Below are positions 12,489 to 40,173 of a stretch of 64,000 nucleotides of DNA, one piece after another (the first letter of the stretch is position 1; each line of letters starts with the position of its first letter). The notes under the pieces were generated by a model. It did not search any database. It had not been told where the DNA came from and was given only the letters and a program-made list of their open reading frames with translations. A program made the translations under genes and the position numbers. Origin of the DNA: Chitinophagales bacterium (GTDB lineage: Bacteria; Bacteroidota; Bacteroidia; Chitinophagales; JADIYW01); assembly GCA_023957245.1 (NCBI GenBank), contig JAMLHJ010000001.1:209273-273272 (forward strand). Direction: 5' to 3'.

Positions 12489-12551
12489 ATGAATATCTTG
12501 CAGATTAATATTTAGTTTTCAACAATTCGGACTTTTATCCTCATTTTTATG

Positions 12552-12625
12552 TGACCCCGAAGAGATTCGAACTCCTAACCTTCTGATCCGTAGTCAGATG
12601 CTCTATCCAATTAAGCTACGGGGCC
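12552..12625 (-). tRNA. tRNA-Arg(ACG)
   Basis: A complete cloverleaf on the minus strand. The acceptor GGCCCCG pairs with CGGGGTC (one G-U), the anticodon loop CTACGGA lies between CTGA and TCAG, and the T loop is GTTCGAATC. The anticodon is ACG, needing deamination to ICG to read CGU/CGC/CGA. CCA is not encoded. Confidence 0.96.
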
Positions 12626-12936: not shown

Positions 12937-15900
12937 TTACTTTTTAACTAGCTTTTTCACATCAGATTTAGCATCCCCTATTAATCGAATAAAATAAACT
13001 CCAGCAGAATAATTAGTAAGATCTATATCTTTCCAATTGTCACTATTTGCAAGTGAAAGACTATATAATACTTTAGAATTTACATCTATCAGTTCTAATT
13101 GACTATAAACACCTTTGCTAAAATAGATATTAACATTTGTACTACTTGGGTTAGGATAAAGCTGTATCTCTCTATTATCTTCTGAAAACTCTAGCATTCT
13201 TATTCCTAGAAATTCAGTAGTTCCATCATAATCCACCTGAGCCAAGCGGTAATAATTATACCCATCAAGAGGCTGCAAGTCATAATAAACATAATCAATA
13301 GGGATATTGGAGTTTCCTGCCCCTCTTACTCTTCCAATTTCCTTGAAATCAATAGCATCTTTTGCTCGAAAAACAATAAATTCTTTATTATTCAATTCAG
13401 ATGCAGTTGCCCACTCTAACTTAGCTTTATCACCATCTTTAGTAGCATAGAAATGTACCAAACTTATAGGAAGAATTGAAGATGAAGAACTTTCAAATGC
13501 ACCTATATCTATTATTCCATTATTTAAAAAATCTGCAACTCTAGAATTTCCCACAAAATCAATAGAATTATTGTTCAGGTTATCAAAAAGTCCATTATTT
13601 CCAGCATCTATGATAGTTGTACCTAATTTAGGTTTATAATTACCAATGGTATCATTTTCAAAGACATCTGCTTTTGTCAAGCCTGATGTATTAAGATTAC
13701 CATTAATTGTATCTACATTCCCTTCAATAAAAGAATATGCAGCATCATAAAGCCCACTAATTGATCCAAACATTATTGAATTATTTACAGTTAACTGTCC
13801 TCCATTTAAGTCAATAGCACTACTCTGTATATTTATCGCATCGTTATTTACTATCGTTGAATTAGTTAAGGTAATAGCTCCGGCTTCATTAAAAATAGCA
13901 CCACCATTATTAGCAACACCCTTATCTATTAAAACATTTATAGCATCAATAGCAGCACCATCATTATATATTGATGCGCCATTTAAAGCCTTATTCCTTG
14001 TAAAATAAACGTTCCTAAGAATAAGGTTTCCAGATGTTGCATTTTTGATATAGAGCCCCCCTCCTGAATTGAAAGGAGCAATAGTGCTATCAGCATTACC
14101 ATCTGCTATAACGACACCTTCTAAAATGACATTATAACTATTTTGAATTGTGACTACATGATAACTATTATCAGTAGCATCATAATCATCATTAATATTA
14201 CCACTTAAAATCGTAGGATATAGGTAAGAATTGTTGGTTGTAGAATCTTCGCCAATGCAACCACCTATTAGATGAAGATTACTTCTTTTTATTACAAAAC
14301 TTTTTGTTCTATCTGTTCCTTCTCTAAAACCGGTTGGGTAATACGTACCTGACGCTATATAAATTGAATCAATCTCATCACAGTAATTTGCTAAATCTAA
14401 GGCTTCCGTTAAAGAGCGGAGTGAATTAGTCCAAGAAAAACCGTCGCCTGCTGTTATCGCATTGACATTTACATAGAGTGCGTGACTATTGAGCTTGGAA
14501 AGACTATCACAATAAGAAATTCCTTCATTTTCATAAGCACCTAAGTCAATAATATTATTTTGGATTCTATTAGCTCCACTTATATCGGTAGCAAGGGAAT
14601 TAGCTAAGGCATTATTTCCTTTATTGATAAAATTCGATTGGAATCCAGCCATCAGACCATCATCAGCAGTAAACCAAAGATTGTCAAAACCGATGGGTTG
14701 TGTTGGGTTGGTAAACTTAGGATCAATATCTATTATGTTTCCTATGCCATTAAGTGGAGATTGCAACATAGAATAAGTTACCATCTTTGACGATGCAGAG
14801 CCTGAACTAAACCACTCATTAGCAGAATTGCCCCAAGAAATGCTATTTCCCATTATTAAGGTGCTTCCATCTTTTTGGGATAACAAAGAGCCATTGAGAG
14901 CATTGTTTTGAAAAAATGTAGCTGACAAAATTTGGGTTGTTGCAGCACTGTCAAATATTGCTCCTCCCTCACCTTGTGCTTCATTTTCATGAAAAATTAT
15001 ATTACTGAAATGGGTATTTGAAAGGAGATTGGCAACTGCTCCGCCTTTTTTAGCTTGATTATTATTAAATACAATATTATTAAAATGGGCTTGGGAATTG
15101 ATATTTAAGATACCGCCCCCTACTGAATCAGAAGTACCAGATTGAATTACAAAACCATCTAAAAGGGCATTGCTATTCACATTTTCATTTATCATAACAC
15201 TGCTACCATTACCACAAAGGATAGTATTGAATCCAGAAGACAAATTTCTTTGAGTTAATTCCGTTTCCGTTCCTTCAAATCCTCCTATAATTTTCACGCC
15301 ACTTTTCATTTTGAAAGCAGTGTGCAACAATGGTGAATAATTCCCACCAGCAACCCAAATAGTATCCCCTATCTTGGCAACAGCGATAGCATCTTCAAAC
15401 TTATCAAAAGCAGTCGCCCAAGAAGATCCATCGGCTTCAATTGTGTCTTGGCTTACATTAACATACCAACGAGTGATTAAGGAATCACTTTCATAAGCTC
15501 CGATATCTACAATTCCTTTTTGAACACGAATAGTGTTCTTTAAATCTGATGAATCAATTACATAGTTGTTATTTCCACCGTTGATTAATGGGCTTGTAGT
15601 TCTCAAACTTAATCCGTCATCTTCAGTGTACCATTGGGCATCGGTTCCCAATAAATTCAGTGTATCCTGAAAGTTAGGATAGATACCTGTACTATTGTTG
15701 GCTATCACATTATTATAATCAGAAACTGAATAATCATCAGGAGCATTAAAAGTATTGGTATTATTCCAAAAACAATTATTGGCAAAAATATTTGAGGTAT
15801 CAGGATTTACAGTTATGGTAACACCACCACCGGTTACAGATTTATTAGCGTAAAATGTATTATTGACCACTTTAAATTTGCCCTCTGACAGATAAAGAGC

Positions 15901-18900
15901 ACCACCACCATATTGCATACCCACAGTATGTACAAAAACATTATTGCTGAGTTCATTATAGCATAAAGTCCAAATATAATTGCCACTGACAGCACCACCG
16001 CCACCGCCTAAAGCCGTATCCCGGATGAAAATATTATGATGCAATAATAAAGAATCTGTAATGCCTCCACCTCTGATAGCACCGCCATTTTGAGCAGCAG
16101 TATTGCCATCATAAATACTATGAGTTGATTTAAAGGTGCCTCCATTAACATAGACGGCTCCTCCTTGTCCACTAAAATTATTCAGGAAGTAACAATTTTT
16201 CACCCATACTTTTGAATTTTTTGAATTAATGGCTGCACCACTTCCTCTTTGAAAAGACTGACCATGAGTAGTATAAATACCAACACCTCCTATGCCAGAA
16301 CCTCCAGTGCCATTGACAAATTTCAATCCATCTATAACTGTAGTACCGAGTGTATCAGCGCCAATTCGCATAATATGCACTGCATTATCATTTCTATCTG
16401 TGGTATTTATATCGCCACTTAATATTACCGGATTAGCATTTATATCTCTAATTCCACCTCCAGACGGATAACCACCAACTAGGGCCATCGGTCGCCAAAG
16501 CTCAAAAGAAGCATCTCTACTAATTGGGGTCAGAGGATCCCCAGGATAATAAGTGCCTTTAGCAATCAAAATACTATCTACAGAAGTGCATAGATTGGCT
16601 ACATTTAAAGCCTCGTTGATAGTTTTAAATGCCTTAGCCCAAGTGCTACCATCACTTACCGTTGTGGTTGTATTTGCATCTACATACAATTTACTTAAGC
16701 CCAGACAACCCCAGCTTTCATAAGCACCGGCATCACTTACTCCTTGCAAAATACGTGGTTGTCCAGTTATATCTTTTTGATTATTATTGTACAACAAACT
16801 ATCATCACCATAATTAATGGCGATGCTATTTGGATTTAATTGAAGTCCATCATCATTAGTCATTATTTTACCATCAGCACCAGCTATATCATTTACATTT
16901 TTAAATACTCCATTGATAGAATCACTGACATAAGTATGAAACAATTGAATATTTCCTGGGTTATTGATATCATTATAATTTTGAGGCGTATTAGCTACCA
17001 ATAAACTATTATATGTTTTTATTCTTGCGGTGAAATTTCCAGAACCTCCTGTACCTCCATCTCCTTCTATAGCACCTGCACCTGCAGCTAATGAAGTATT
17101 ATTGACAGCTGTGACATTATACAATTTCAATTTGTAAAATACCGGCATCATCCCTTTGGCAACATAAGCCACAGCACCTCTGTTTGCGGTATTATTATAA
17201 AATACACAATGGTCAATATCCAATGCCCCAGCACCACTCGAGCCAAAAACATAACCAAATATAGCACCTCCTTTATCGGCAGCACTATTATTTCTAAAAA
17301 CACAATTGGCAATAACATTACTGGGGTCAGCAATTTGTGCAATTTCAAAATATCCGCCACCATTACTTAAATCATTACCTCCATTGGCATTCCCTCCTTC
17401 TATAATAAAACCATCCAATCGGGAACCCTGTCCTTCAGAAGTGATTACATGATAAACATTATCAGATGGCAAACCTATTGTACCGATATCTCCACTTAAC
17501 AAGGTCAGATTTTGACCAATATTTCTCTGATTTAATTGAGTTTCTGTTCCTGCAAATCCACCATATATTTTGGAAGTATTCGGTAGGCGAAAAGTGTTTT
17601 CTCTATTTCCGGGAGTGGGTAAACTGTTTCTATATATTCTATCTGGATAGTAAGTGCCACTTTTAACCCAAATACTTTTTTGAGAAAGTCCATTTCCTGA
17701 ATTGGCAATGGCTTCATTAAGATTGGTATAAGCATTAGCCCATGAAGATCCGTCTCCTGTACCTGTTGCATCCCAAGCCACATACAGCACCGGATTAATT
17801 TCAGCTGCACCCATATCAATTTGGTCTTCATTAATCCGAGTTTTACCATACAAATCGGTAGCATAAGGATTATAATTATTCTTACCGGCATTGCGACAAG
17901 GGCTTTGAGGCATTAATGTATAAGGAGAAGATAGATTAAATTGAGGGTCAGCATCAATATTTCCACCATAATCTATGACAGAAGAAAGTGCCCAAGTAGT
18001 GCTACCGCCACAACCCTGAATATTGCTAAAGTCCACATGGAAGGTTCCAGTATTTGCAATTTGAGCCGAATTAGGGTCGGTATTAAAAAAAAGAATACTA
18101 TTATTAAGAGAAATAAAACCGGCATTTGAAATTGCACCGCCACCAACTAAAGCATCATTATAAACAAAAGTATTATTGATTACTTTAGCATTATTACTTG
18201 AGCTAATATGCAATGCCCCACCCTTTGTTTGCGCAGTATTATTATCAAAAAGGCAGTTTAAAGAATATAATCTTAAAAGGTTATTATTCAAAAATATAGC
18301 CCCTCCATTGGTATTAGAAGTATTATTTTCAAAAGAGGAATTAATAACATCCATATTGCTGTTATAGGTGGATGCAGATGGAGCAGTATATATAGCACCA
18401 CCATTATTACCAAAATTATCTATAAACTTACAGTTTTGAATAGAAGAAGTTGAATATTGCAAGGTGTCGTGAATAACAACTTGAACATTTTTAATAGCAC
18501 CACCTCCATCACTGGCATTAGCATTGGCATAACCTTCTTTAATTGTAAAGCCATCCAATACGCTCTTATTCCCTGCAATAGTAACGACATGATAACTATT
18601 ATCTGTTTCAAAATTGGTTAAGCCGATATTACCCGATAAAATACTTGGGTAAGCAGCAGGATCTCGTTCTGAAAACAAACTGCCTCCGGTAGGGAATCCT
18701 CCATAAACTTTATCGTTATCATGTAGGGTAAAGCTGGCATTTCTATCATCTAATGAAATACCTTGTCCTTGGTCGGGCAAATAAGTGCCTTGAGCTACAT
18801 AAACCTCACGTCCTGTACCACTTTGCGAACAACCAAATCTTAAAGCGTCTTGCAAAGAGTTGAAAGCATCAGTCCAAGAAGTACCATTATTAGCACCAGT

Positions 18901-20832
18901 TGCTGAGGCATCTACATATAATTTGTCTGGGAAATTATAGACTACATTAAAGACTTTGACAAAAGTATCACTTTGGTGATTGTCTAAATCAGTATAGGAA
19001 TAAGCAATAGGTTGGCTACCTACATCAGCACAGGTAAAATTGGTTGGTGGGAAATTGATAGTCACATTACTGCCATTGCAACCATCAAATCCCTGTGGAA
19101 AATTTGCAGCTGTCAGTGTTACTGGCCCATTACTTACATCAATACGAGATGTAAATCCCGGGTCAAAGATATTGGGATTGGATTCCGGAAGACGAGGAAT
19201 AGGTACATAATCATCGACTACCGTAACATGAATAAGTCCATTCGTACTATTTCCTGCTCCATCAGTAAGTGTGAGGTAAACAGGAATGGTTTGTCCTGCC
19301 ATAAAACATTGAAACACCGATTCACTTGTGGTAATATTAACGATGCTGTCATTATCCCAAAGTCCATTAGGCTTCATAAAATAAGGTTGGATAGCCTCAG
19401 AAAAAGGCAGATCCGTTTGGAAAGCTAAATATGGAGCAAAAGGATTCAAAGAAGTATTTTTTAAATATACCGTGATGCTATCCAAATTAATTTGCGGCGG
19501 AACTGTATCGGCAATAGTCCGGTATTTAAAATAGCCACTTTTGGGGTTGTTAGTAGAATTATGTGGAATGATGGAAGTGTTGGTCAATCCGTTGGCAAAC
19601 ATATTCCAACCTGGGTCGGCGGGAGTAATGTAAAAATGACCTTTGGAAAGATCCCCAATAGAACCAGTGCCGCCAGCTCCACCTGTGGACATATCGTATT
19701 CTTCACCTAAATCAAATACCCTAAAGCCTTGATAATAATCAGTAGTTGACGTGCCAGCGCCACCACCACTCAATCCGGCACCGCCGCGGCCACCGTTCTT
19801 TACAATATGCACATCATAAGAAGAACCAAGACTCCATGCCGTTCCCATAGTGGTATTTCCTGCCGAACCTTCCTGATTTGCCCAGATGAGGGTAGGTTTC
19901 CCTCCTTCTTGACCAAAGGTAATACTGGACAATAAATTTGAGCTGTTCAATGCCTTTCTTTGGGAAAAGACATTATGATAATATCCACTGGAGTTTCTTA
20001 TTTTTTCATTATTGGAGCAACAAACACTACCATTCAAAGAAGTGGTAGCTCCTAATAATCTGCTACCACCAGCAGTAAAAATCATAAATGGATTTCCGTC
20101 AACACTAATTGTAAGGTTAGCAATATGCGATCCCAATTGACTATTCAAACCTGGGTTCGGGCCTAAAAACCAAGCAGAAGCACCGTGCAGTGAACGAAAA
20201 ACGGTCGCAAATCCACCACTACCGCCACCGGCAGCAGCAATCAGATGCTTATCAATTAAATTAAAATAATAAGCTGGCGTTGTAGGTTTAAGCCATGCCA
20301 TTCCAGTAGAACCACCACCTCCGGCAGCAACATAGCCGTATTGACCATATTGTACACTTTCTCCTTTCTTGCCATAAGTAACAATGAAAGGTTTGCCATA
20401 ATTGTTGCTATTGTCTAAATTGAGGGTATAATGCAATTCCCCACCTTTACCACCATTAGCAAAGCGATTATCCACTAAGTTTTTGTACCAAGCCGTGCCA
20501 CCATCACCACCAAAGAGTTGAAACTCCACGCCAACAACACCCAAACCTCTTTGGGGCATTTTGAATATTTGGGTTTCTATTAAATCAATATTATTAGACT
20601 GGTCGGGATTAAAAGTTACCCATTGCCCTGCAGTATTTGTAAGTGGAGTAGCAACAACATCATTAAAAGTAGTAACCGTCAATGTCGGGTCATTCACGAC
20701 AACCTGTGCCTGGCTGGCGGAAGCTAATCCTAAAAATAATAGAATTTGAAATATCAATTTCCAATCACTAAATTGAATAGTAAGTCTGCTAATCCTTGTC
20801 CTTTGAAAACAAAAACTTAAAGAATTAGACAT
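12937..20832 (-). CDS. Giant secreted five-module beta-helix surface protein with glycine-rich head and T9SS tail
   Basis: About 2,631 residues from the ATG at 20832, which puts a signal peptide ending ASASQAQ near residue 43; an in-frame ATG at 20886 would add 18 residues. Residues about 80-420 are a glycine-rich domain (GGDGGTAW, AAGGGGSTGMAW, GGRGGAGLSGGGAG) resembling the ALK/LTK-type glycine-rich fold. An HYR-like immunoglobulin unit follows (VTVVDDYVPI). Then five modules of about 330-400 residues each begin LYVDA or similar with GSSWxxAF. They carry GGAI/NNT right-handed beta-helix repeats and end in IDxGAYES. A Bacteroidota adhesin-type linker (LEWATASELNNKEF) and a sorting domain (IQLYPNPSSTNVNIYF) close it. 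It is probably an exported adhesin or polysaccharide-binding protein; no catalytic residue was identified. Confidence 0.85.
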   Translation of the reverse strand: MSNSLSFCFQRTRISRLTIQFSDWKLIFQILLFLGLASASQAQVVVNDPTLTVTTFNDVVATPLTNTAGQWVTFNPDQSNNIDLIETQIFKMPQRGLGVVGVEFQLFGGDGGTAWYKNLVDNRFANGGKGGELHYTLNLDNSNNYGKPFIVTYGKKGESVQYGQYGYVAAGGGGSTGMAWLKPTTPAYYFNLIDKHLIAAAGGGSGGFATVFRSLHGASAWFLGPNPGLNSQLGSHIANLTISVDGNPFMIFTAGGSRLLGATTSLNGSVCCSNNEKIRNSSGYYHNVFSQRKALNSSNLLSSITFGQEGGKPTLIWANQEGSAGNTTMGTAWSLGSSYDVHIVKNGGRGGAGLSGGGAGTSTTDYYQGFRVFDLGEEYDMSTGGAGGTGSIGDLSKGHFYITPADPGWNMFANGLTNTSIIPHNSTNNPKSGYFKYRTIADTVPPQINLDSITVYLKNTSLNPFAPYLAFQTDLPFSEAIQPYFMKPNGLWDNDSIVNITTSESVFQCFMAGQTIPVYLTLTDGAGNSTNGLIHVTVVDDYVPIPRLPESNPNIFDPGFTSRIDVSNGPVTLTAANFPQGFDGCNGSNVTINFPPTNFTCADVGSQPIAYSYTDLDNHQSDTFVKVFNVVYNFPDKLYVDASATGANNGTSWTDAFNSLQDALRFGCSQSGTGREVYVAQGTYLPDQGQGISLDDRNASFTLHDNDKVYGGFPTGGSLFSERDPAAYPSILSGNIGLTNFETDNSYHVVTIAGNKSVLDGFTIKEGYANANASDGGGAIKNVQVVIHDTLQYSTSSIQNCKFIDNFGNNGGAIYTAPSASTYNSNMDVINSSFENNTSNTNGGAIFLNNNLLRLYSLNCLFDNNTAQTKGGALHISSSNNAKVINNTFVYNDALVGGGAISNAGFISLNNSILFFNTDPNSAQIANTGTFHVDFSNIQGCGGSTTWALSSVIDYGGNIDADPQFNLSSPYTLMPQSPCRNAGKNNYNPYATDLYGKTRINEDQIDMGAAEINPVLYVAWDATGTGDGSSWANAYTNLNEAIANSGNGLSQKSIWVKSGTYYPDRIYRNSLPTPGNRENTFRLPNTSKIYGGFAGTETQLNQRNIGQNLTLLSGDIGTIGLPSDNVYHVITSEGQGSRLDGFIIEGGNANGGNDLSNGGGYFEIAQIADPSNVIANCVFRNNSAADKGGAIFGYVFGSSGAGALDIDHCVFYNNTANRGAVAYVAKGMMPVFYKLKLYNVTAVNNTSLAAGAGAIEGDGGTGGSGNFTARIKTYNSLLVANTPQNYNDINNPGNIQLFHTYVSDSINGVFKNVNDIAGADGKIMTNDDGLQLNPNSIAINYGDDSLLYNNNQKDITGQPRILQGVSDAGAYESWGCLGLSKLYVDANTTTTVSDGSTWAKAFKTINEALNVANLCTSVDSILIAKGTYYPGDPLTPISRDASFELWRPMALVGGYPSGGGIRDINANPVILSGDINTTDRNDNAVHIMRIGADTLGTTVIDGLKFVNGTGGSGIGGVGIYTTHGQSFQRGSGAAINSKNSKVWVKNCYFLNNFSGQGGAVYVNGGTFKSTHSIYDGNTAAQNGGAIRGGGITDSLLLHHNIFIRDTALGGGGGAVSGNYIWTLCYNELSNNVFVHTVGMQYGGGALYLSEGKFKVVNNTFYANKSVTGGGVTITVNPDTSNIFANNCFWNNTNTFNAPDDYSVSDYNNVIANNSTGIYPNFQDTLNLLGTDAQWYTEDDGLSLRTTSPLINGGNNNYVIDSSDLKNTIRVQKGIVDIGAYESDSLITRWYVNVSQDTIEADGSSWATAFDKFEDAIAVAKIGDTIWVAGGNYSPLLHTAFKMKSGVKIIGGFEGTETELTQRNLSSGFNTILCGNGSSVMINENVNSNALLDGFVIQSGTSDSVGGGILNINSQAHFNNIVFNNNQAKKGGAVANLLSNTHFSNIIFHENEAQGEGGAIFDSAATTQILSATFFQNNALNGSLLSQKDGSTLIMGNSISWGNSANEWFSSGSASSKMVTYSMLQSPLNGIGNIIDIDPKFTNPTQPIGFDNLWFTADDGLMAGFQSNFINKGNNALANSLATDISGANRIQNNIIDLGAYENEGISYCDSLSKLNSHALYVNVNAITAGDGFSWTNSLRSLTEALDLANYCDEIDSIYIASGTYYPTGFREGTDRTKSFVIKRSNLHLIGGCIGEDSTTNNSYLYPTILSGNINDDYDATDNSYHVVTIQNSYNVILEGVVIADGNADSTIAPFNSGGGLYIKNATSGNLILRNVYFTRNKALNGASIYNDGAAIDAINVLIDKGVANNGGAIFNEAGAITLTNSTIVNNDAINIQSSAIDLNGGQLTVNNSIMFGSISGLYDAAYSFIEGNVDTINGNLNTSGLTKADVFENDTIGNYKPKLGTTIIDAGNNGLFDNLNNNSIDFVGNSRVADFLNNGIIDIGAFESSSSSILPISLVHFYATKDGDKAKLEWATASELNNKEFIVFRAKDAIDFKEIGRVRGAGNSNIPIDYVYYDLQPLDGYNYYRLAQVDYDGTTEFLGIRMLEFSEDNREIQLYPNPSSTNVNIYFSKGVYSQLELIDVNSKVLYSLSLANSDNWKDIDLTNYSAGVYFIRLIGDAKSDVKKLVKK
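13480..18930 (-). repeat. Five homologous beta-helix modules inside the giant protein gene
   Basis: Module starts read in order LYVDASATG (near 18930), LYVAWDATG (17790), LYVDANTTT (16690), WYVNVSQDT (15475) and LYVNVNAIT (14490). Each opens with a D/NGxSW-AF segment and a (Y/S)(I/V)xxGTYYP motif, and closes with a GxxR...DxGA(Y/F)E signature. The modules are diverged at DNA level, so the duplications are old. Confidence 0.75.
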
Positions 20833-21062
20833 CTTAAACAATACTATATTATTCCTTAATAAATAGTTTGTAAAAAAATAATGCATATAGAATAATTGAA
20901 TACTTAAAATTATTCTTTGTCTCCAATTATAGTAAAAAACAAGGAGTCACAAAAAAGTCACAACACCATATATTCATGATATATAATAAATTATAGTGTA
21001 GAAGAAATTAGTAAATAAGCTTACTAAAAATACCTCAATACAATCAAATACAATACTATTAT

Positions 21063-37715: not shown

Positions 37716-37725
37716 GGGTAGATTG
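37716..37725. repeat. Right target-site duplication of the IS4-type element
   Basis: GGGTAGATTG directly follows the right inverted repeat and is identical to 36302-36311. Its last three bases (TTG) restore the leucine codon at the junction. Confidence 0.95.
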
Positions 37726-40173
37726 CCCTATAAATATTTCAGCGTACTTCCATTTTCTATTGAGTATAATCAAAGTGATTTAAATAGATTTCCTTATGCT
37801 TATGGCTCCAACTATATTTTTGATAAAATAAAGAAGACACATAAAAACATAAGCTATGGTCAAGTAGTCAATGGCGGACATATTATTATTTCTCCAACAC
37901 CTATTGCAGTAGATATGACTGGAGGATGGGATCAATATACTACGAATAATTCTACTTCAATTTTAAATCAAAGAGATATTGTTTTTGATGAATTATCTTC
38001 TTTTATAAATATACAAATAGGCACCAAAAGTCAAGGTAATCATAAAGCTGTCAATTATGCTGTTTTCCCTGATAATACAACCAGCTTATGTCTAGAAGAT
38101 GACCTTCTATTGATAAAATCACCTATCCTTATCTCAGATACTTTATGTCCTAATTCTGTAGAGACTGCTATTTTAAATGATAAGTTTCCAAATTTTACTA
38201 AGTCAGTACAATGGGACGTCTCTTCCAATCTGAAAATAATAGGTTCAAGTAATGAAGATGTACTTACATTTGAAGTGGGTAGCAAGAATGCTATTGATAC
38301 AATATTTGTTACAATAGTTTTTAATAATAATGATAAGATTTCAACCTATAAAACGGTGGTGGTTGGGAAGAATAACGCTTCTTATTTGATAAGTTCAAAG
38401 GCTTTTCCTGAAAATGCTGGTCTTGTTTCCAGAGATAACACATATAAGCAATGTCAAACAGCAACAGTAAAAGCCCAACCTTCAGTAGGGTATGAATTTG
38501 CCGGCTGGAAGGAGTATAATCATATAGTGTCTGAAGATAGCATTTATCAATTTTCTGTAACCAAAGAAAGATTTTTAATTGCCAATTTTGAAGCTAAAAT
38601 TTATGAAGTTCAACTTCAAAATTCACCTACAAATGGAGGAGTAGTGAAAGGAGCAGGATCTTATGAATATGGGCAGACAGTTCAGATAAGTGCCCAAGTA
38701 AAAGGTGGATATATATTTAAGAATTGGACTGAAAATGGAATAATTGTTTCGGCAGATAGTATTTATAGCTTTATTGTTAATAGAGATAGGATTTTAATAG
38801 CAAATTATGATACAAGAAAATTTGAAGTAAATCTAACAGTCTTACCTTCAGAAGGCGGCATTCTTTTGGGTGCAGGTCTTTATGAAGCAGGTCAATCTGT
38901 AAGCATAGAAGCTCAGGTAGCAGATGGATTTAGTTTTAAAAACTGGACTGAAGATGGCAAAGTGGTATCCACCAATAAAATTTACAATTTCAAGATATCT
39001 AATGACCGAAACTTAGTAGCCAATTTTGTTGGTAAAGAGTATAAAATTGTATTGAATGCATCACCGACAGAAGGTGGTATTCTTTCAGGTGGTGGCAAGT
39101 ACTATTATGGTGATACAGTTTCTGTCCTTGCCAAGCCAAGGGTAAGATATAGCTTTAAGAATTGGACTTCAAATGGAGTAATTATATCTACAGATAGTGC
39201 TTATAGTTTTAAGGTGACTGGAGATAAAATATTGACAGCCAATTTTGTTACTAGAGAATTCAATATCAATTTATTGGCATCACCTAAAGAAGGTGGAATC
39301 TTGACAGGAGGAGGAATGTATGAAGTAGGTACTTCTGTAAATGTTTCAGCTCAAGCTTCTGAGGGTTATATCTTTAAAAATTGGACTGAAGAAGGGAAAG
39401 TGATATCTACGAATAAAGTGATGAATTTCAAAGCGACTTCTGATAGGACGCTTATTGCCAATTTCACTCCTCAAGCGTTCAATATAGACATTTCAGCATC
39501 TCCTATTGAAGGAGGAACATTATCAGGAGCTGGGAAATATAACTATAATGAATCTGCAACTGTTACTGCATACGCATCTGAAGGTTTTGAATTTAAGAAT
39601 TGGACAGTAAATGGAGTAATTGTTTCTACAGATAGTGCTTATAGTTTTAAGGTGACTGGAGATAAAACTTTGATAGCCAATTTCTCTCCTCAAGCGTTCA
39701 ATATAGACATTTCAGCATCTCCTATTGAAGGAGGAACATTATCAGGAGCTGGAAAATATAACTATAATGAATCTGCAACTGTCACCGCATACGCATCAGC
39801 CGGATTCAGCTTTTTGAACTGGACAGAAAATGGAGTAATTGTTTCGACAGATAGTATTTATCAATTTACGGTAACAGAGAATAAATCTCTAATTGCCAAT
39901 TTTAATTCTATTGCGACTCATCTTCCAGCTGAAAAAATTCAATATATTTCAATTTATCCCAATCCATTTATTGAAGAATTAATAATTGATTCAAAAGATT
40001 TCGAGATGAAGAGAATCAGTATTTATAATGTCATTGGAGAAAAAGTAATTGAGGAAGATATTTCTAATTTAAGCAAGCATATTATTAATACTACAAGTCT
40101 GAGTGCTGGTACTTATATAATTGTTATAGATGGAGAAAAAGAAAGACACATCATCGAAGGAGTAAAATTATAA
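37726..40173 (+). pseudogene. 3' part of the IS-split hydrolase: end of hydrolase domain, seven InlB-type repeats, T9SS tail
   Basis: 815 codons continuing the frame broken at 36311. The first ~55 residues complete the hydrolase fold, with QVVNGGHII giving a probable histidine. An Ig-like stretch follows (about 110-215 residues in), then seven repeats of about 73 residues with GG-(x)-GAG-Y...FKNWTENG...ANF, the divergent InlB B-repeat/Flg_new type. Last comes a T9SS sorting domain (ISIYPNPFIEELIID). A TTG at 37723 could in principle start translation, but no signal peptide would result. The intact protein would have been exported and surface-attached or released. Confidence 0.88.
38380..39915 (+). 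repeat. Seven tandem ~219-bp InlB-type repeats
   Basis: Each unit of about 73 codons has the pattern ASP-EGG-L-GAGKY...W-(x)-G-(x)-STDSxYSF...ANF. Units 6 and 7 start 219 bases apart (AATATAGACATTTCAGCATC at 39481 and 39700) and are almost identical at DNA level over more than 100 bases. Part of unit 4 also resembles unit 6. This indicates recent unequal exchange or slippage. Confidence 0.85.

Follow-up and report, generated by a model that had tools for sequence, protein, structure and literature searches.

The closest described counterparts of the protein reported here are the TG regions of the animal receptor tyrosine kinases ALK and LTK, which combine a TNF-like and a glycine-rich part (PF12810; PDB entries 7nx1, 7lir, and 7mzy), and two phage tips, Pam3 gp24 (7ypx) and the Bxb1 tail tip (9d93). 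ALK, LTK, and S16 gp38 have been grouped as glycine-rich bundles (PMC13243192). The DNA stretch analysed here (64,000 nucleotides, referred to as the window) carries the gene for a giant substrate of the type IX secretion system (T9SS), the N-terminal head of which very likely adopts the same fold, namely a TNF-like sandwich with a glycine-rich bundle. The predicted fold of the head resembles the ALK/LTK region over 200–218 residues (Z ~16), with the order of the TNF-like strands, the glycine segments, and the closing strand in common, although the sequences are ~20% identical and PF12810 does not detect the head. Unlike ALK and LTK, the giant protein is bacterial and secreted, and it lacks an EGF-like domain, a transmembrane helix, and a kinase. 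The phage tips resemble the predicted head with Z values of 9.5–9.6. Both Pam3 gp24 and the head show a conserved glycine core and variable loops, but gp24 is a short trimeric fibre, whereas the domain described here would tip a T9SS-exported stalk of ~1800 residues.

The giant protein shares its modules and its type-A tail with the choice-of-anchor-Q/PMP proteins that have T9SS tails. Other choice-of-anchor-Q proteins, e.g. one of 5942 aa in the same genome, begin directly with the modules and have no head. The open frame of the latter (G000, contig C19, ~202000–220000; L018, L019) is larger than the giant gene and has 13 choice_anch_Q matches; a 384-aa ORF that resembles a membrane protein precedes it on the same strand. 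A literature search for papers on choice-of-anchor Q proteins found none. The same ingredients are present in another giant protein of the order (L062, genome G066), an example of the giant Bacteroidota surface proteins that carry PF12810 domains, where about a dozen choice_anch_Q stretches are followed by GRD and HYR-like domains, so that the combination recurs; its GRD is canonical and internal, with the order reversed, while that of the giant protein is N-terminal and diverged. The L062 frame (L062:407-15982), which carries the PF12810 domain, exceeds 5192 aa and is open at both contig ends; a further open frame, at L066:3-19901, is longer than 6633 aa and holds six or more glycine-rich GRD domains. 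Elsewhere in the order, PF12810 (now ALK_LTK_GRD) occurs in 38 of 396 genomes. SprB and RemA are also giant T9SS-exported surface proteins (PMC10202324), but the scans made found no family relation between them and the giant protein. The chlamydial Pmps have a C-terminal autotransporter barrel, whereas the giant protein ends in a T9SS sorting domain and no barrel model matches its C-terminus. Bacterial PF12810 domains, choice-of-anchor-Q proteins, T9SS cargo, and the resemblance of the ALK and phage folds were thus already known; new are the diverged head at the N-terminal tip, invisible to the domain libraries, the conserved five-module family, and a linked regulator.

The giant gene is one ORF with an ATG start (Table 1). 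Its product consists of a signal peptide, the glycine-rich head, an Ig/HYR-like stretch, five choice-of-anchor-Q/PMP modules, an Fn3-like linker, and a type-A T9SS sorting domain; the signal-peptide-like segment ends ...LLFLGLASASQAQ. The initial annotation had placed the giant T9SS substrate at 12937–20832; this upper bound is an in-frame internal ATG (M19, an alternative start), and the ORF reaches 20886. The HYR-like unit proposed next to the head is only partly recovered, since HYR_4C matches two of the five family members (best E 0.0018) and Bact_surface_Ig-like one of the five, which makes the stretch at aa 460–655 a weak assignment, and neither HYR nor HYR_4C matches the protein of the window. 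The five repeated modules, with their PMP likeness, and the T9SS tail are confirmed by the curated models described below. A tRNA-Arg (acg) gene is located directly downstream, on the same strand (window 12551–12625).

Table 1. Features of the giant gene and of its linked regulator, in window coordinates.
Feature	Coordinates	Strand	Basis or remark
Whole giant gene, 2649 aa	12937..20886	(-)	Co-linear orthologues; alternative ATG at 20832
N-terminal extension and signal-peptide-like segment, aa 1-61	20704..20886	(-)	Sequence; fast-evolving, nearest orthologue 52% identical
Head, aa 62-460; TNF-like/glycine-rich domain, predicted ALK/LTK fold, below Pfam detection	19507..20703	(-)	Profile-profile comparison and predicted models
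Ig/HYR-like stretch, aa 460-655	18922..19509	(-)	Weak matches, in orthologues only
Module 1, aa 656-1033; choice-of-anchor-Q with PMP repeats	17788..18921	(-)	Curated models
Module 2, aa 1034-1399	16690..17787	(-)	choice_anch_Q and inter-module identity
Module 3, aa 1400-1806	15469..16689	(-)	choice_anch_Q and inter-module identity
Module 4, aa 1807-2136	14479..15468	(-)	choice_anch_Q and inter-module identity
Module 5, aa 2137-2470	13477..14478	(-)	choice_anch_Q and inter-module identity
Fn3-like linker, aa 2471-2572	13171..13476	(-)	Sequence; fold by inspection only
T9SS type-A C-terminal sorting domain, aa 2573-2649	12940..13170	(-)	PF18962 and TIGR04183
Linked TPR-HTH regulator, 573 aa	21063..22784	(-)	Counterpart adjoins 5/5 orthologues

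The sorting domain matches PF18962 (E 1.4e-10, 41.8 bits, cut-off 27) and TIGR04183 (E 7.6e-10, 38.6 bits, cut-off 23) at the extreme C-terminus (aa 2576–2649). The presence of a T9SS in the genome was judged by the translocon gene SprA (SprA_N, E 2.2e-154). The giant protein is probably best explained as a T9SS-exported, rod-like fibrous surface adhesin, with a recognition tip of the ALK/phage-fibre type on a beta-helix stalk and with a regulator of its own. It would pass first through Sec and then through the T9SS, and its C-terminal end would hold it at the outer membrane, which places the head distally. The five modules would form the stalk, the Ig/HYR-like stretch a hinge, and the head the distal tip, in which a TNF-like beta-sandwich carries the glycine-rich bundle and the variable loops may contact the ligand. 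Probable ligands are glycans and the surfaces of other cells or particles. Type-A cargo is cleaved and then either anchored on the cell surface or set free (PMC10202324), and its possible release into the medium counts against a surface adhesin.

The five modules are 32–38% identical to one another in pairwise comparison (z 10–18 vs shuffled sequence). The choice-of-anchor-Q model NF041518 matches the protein five times, with an E value of 1.4e-32 in sum (111.7 bits vs the curated cut-off of 25 bits), and it recognizes all 25 modules of the five family proteins (E ≤ 0.1); Chlam_PMP repeats are found in 20 of these 25. For the whole protein of the window, PF02415 (Chlam_PMP) gives 21.6 bits, above the gathering score of 20.6, and for module 1 alone 37.3 bits. 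No tandem repeat is seen at the DNA level within the giant gene, and the modules are thus old. The only PDB match of the module profile is to 7w5z_U2, a 3634-aa Tetrahymena transmembrane protein (residues 3030–3176, E 8.7e-12). The family assignment points to a beta-helix fold for the modules. A beta-helix coil comprises roughly 22 residues with a rise of 0.48 nm, and by these general values a stalk of ~1800 residues would span an estimated ~40 nm. Beta-helix modules are also common in polysaccharide lyases, and the giant protein could instead be a secreted or surface protein that acts on polysaccharides or belongs to the matrix, with catalytic or carbohydrate-binding modules and with a head that merely caps the protein or mediates its oligomerisation. 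TNF-like domains do trimerise, and in Pam3 gp24 the TNF-like/glycine-rich domain is part of a trimer, but this explanation is considered unlikely, as no lyase or glycosidase family matches the modules and the columns that never vary across the 25 modules consist mainly of Gly, Asn, or aromatic residues and do not look catalytic.

Four further genes are co-linear with the giant gene over the full length, giving a family of five genes in four Chitinophagales genomes from two families. The same-genus orthologue shows 86% identity overall and 92% in the head, while for the orthologues from the other family (two in G019, one in G072) the identity of the head is 34–49%. A search with the head profile finds the gene in 4 of the 396 genomes of the order and in no other genome of the class sample (395, own genome included); it is also absent from a genome of the same genus (G002). 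Such a distribution is unlike that of a core motility part, and makes it quite improbable that the giant protein serves in gliding motility like SprB and RemA, as an adhesin that the T9SS motor carries along the surface. In favour of such a role, SprA is present, and gliding in Bacteroidota is driven by large adhesins that the T9SS exports (PMC10202324).

Corresponding modules of different proteins have a mean identity of 46%, compared with 31% for different modules of one protein, from which it follows that the five modules predate the divergence of these genes. The dN/dS ratio between the window gene and its nearest orthologue is ~0.1 across the head and the modules, which indicates that the giant protein is maintained by purifying selection. 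In the other family, the Fn3-like linker is replaced by an unrelated sequence. The synonymous divergence from the nearest orthologue is 0.40–0.53 from the head to module 3 and 1.0–1.2 in modules 4–5 (window 13477–15468), with identities of 91–93% and 75–79%, respectively. This pattern suggests that the 3' part of the gene was replaced by recombination near the boundary of modules 3 and 4.

The head (aa 62–460) contains 16% glycine and is therefore glycine-rich rather than poly-glycine, as the initial annotation had it. PF12810 does not match the head: Pfam hmmscan of the head, alone and with its orthologues (five heads), gave no match at E ≤ 10, and in the search of the genome with PF12810 the head was likewise not matched at E ≤ 10 and is short of the gathering score for membership. 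The head is thus a diverged relative of PF12810 and not a Pfam member, and its homology becomes detectable in profile-profile comparison. When the head family was aligned by hhalign to five bacterial PF12810 domains, a score of 41.1 (E 5.6e-5) was obtained over head positions 43–171, and none of 300 randomised controls (full, glycine-preserving, and local column shuffles) reached this score, the best giving 30.8. Against 37 GRD domains the score is 34.2 (full shuffles at most 20.6), and against another alignment of four GRD domains it falls to 25.3 (E 0.014), so the strength of the match depends on the alignment used. A profile of four bacterial PF12810 domains in turn finds the crystal structures of ALK and LTK (E ~1e-7), providing a bridge from the head to the receptors. 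In the joint alignment QIFKMP, GVEFQLFGGDGG, GGKGGEL, FIVTYGKKG, the GGGGST segment, and LIAAAGGG face matching GRD motifs in order. HMMER comparison of the head with the 37-domain GRD model gives high raw scores, most of which are removed by composition correction, and the null is considerably higher when the glycine positions are kept fixed and the rest is shuffled; the case for the fold is therefore built mainly on other comparisons. A search of PDB sequences using the profile of the head gave a single weak hit (4gnx_C, E 7e-4). No sequence relatives of the head were detected in 50,697 phage records, in PHROGs, or among viral contigs.

Two models of the head were calculated with AlphaFold2. 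Model 1, based on the five head orthologues only, has a pLDDT of 34.8; with this low-confidence model Foldseek returned nothing significant, and ALK was seen only by VIA-align, where ALK/LTK entries take ranks 1–10 (Z 5.6–7.8), the Bxb1 tail tip reaches 5.3, and unrelated folds do not exceed 4.1. Model 2, for which 37 PF12810 rows were added to the alignment, has a pLDDT of 60.8 and a pTM of 0.69. Foldseek places ALK at ranks 1–9 for this model (best E 6.1e-6) and the Bxb1 tip at ranks 10–11, while VIA-align gives twelve ALK/LTK entries (Z 15.3–16.2), followed by the Pam3 fibre (9.6), the Bxb1 tail tip (9.5), and the next fold at 2.4. The added rows bias model 2 towards the ALK/LTK fold; model 1 and the sequence controls, made without such rows, are free of this bias. 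The overall confidence is moderate, and residues 179–259, 274–300, and 352–374 mostly have pLDDT values below 50. With ALK/LTK ranked first for both models, and together with the randomised controls and the bacterial bridge, the ALK-like glycine-rich head proposed in the initial annotation is well founded. It is very unlikely that the resemblance is convergent or compositional and that the head has another fold, a view to which the silence of PF12810 and the HMMER composition effects lend some weight, because controls that keep the glycine positions still lose in hhalign, the model without PF12810 rows ranks ALK/LTK first, and the non-glycine motifs QIFKMP, GVEFQLFG, and LIAAAGGG follow the GRD order.

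Between diverged orthologues, the confidently modeled core of the head is 46–61% identical and the low-confidence loops 12–32%, with most of the indels falling in the loops. As pLDDT tracks conservation, this contrast is partly circular and is taken as supportive only. The head, read as the recognition tip of an adhesin, would mean that environmental Bacteroidota export giant proteins tipped with a fold that binds ligands in animal receptor tyrosine kinases and that phages use for gripping the host. Its form is missed by the current domain libraries, which points to further glycine-rich heads that have gone unnoticed in giant T9SS cargo. Such heads may offer intermediates for the origin of the ALK/LTK ligand-binding region, and the present one gives a concrete place to seek the partners of the adhesin.

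Next to the giant gene, at five of five loci, lies the gene of a TPR protein whose HTH is LuxR/GerE-like, a neighbour absent from the initial annotation. The association is strong: in the four genomes, full-length matches to the regulator profile (1, 1, 2, and 1) equal the giant genes in number and occur only at these loci, and the next-best match has 66.8 bits compared with more than 700 bits for the linked copies, from which the profile itself was built. The regulator lies upstream on the same strand in the genus of the window and is divergently oriented in the other family, and the other neighbours of the giant gene differ between the two families. The window regulator has an N-terminal signal/anchor, TPRs, a transmembrane segment, and a LuxR/sigma-region-4-like HTH. 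Regulators of the two families are only 17–20% identical and differ in architecture, with the N-terminal anchor and the central transmembrane segment found in the genus of the window and an apparently cytoplasmic form in the other family. The regulator may control the expression of the adhesin, and the linkage makes the question of expression testable. It is a distinctly doubtful proposition that the giant gene, together with the TPR-HTH gene beside it, forms a self-contained recognition cassette moving between lineages, in which the tip would bind a partner and the regulator, seemingly membrane-spanning in the genus of the window and with the TPRs located outside the cytoplasm, would read the envelope or binding state and set the amount of adhesin. 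A promoter scan of the region returned 70 sites, compared with 57 expected. Elsewhere in the window, a 219-bp unit is repeated 2.1 times (39454–39902) inside the ORF at 37723–40173.
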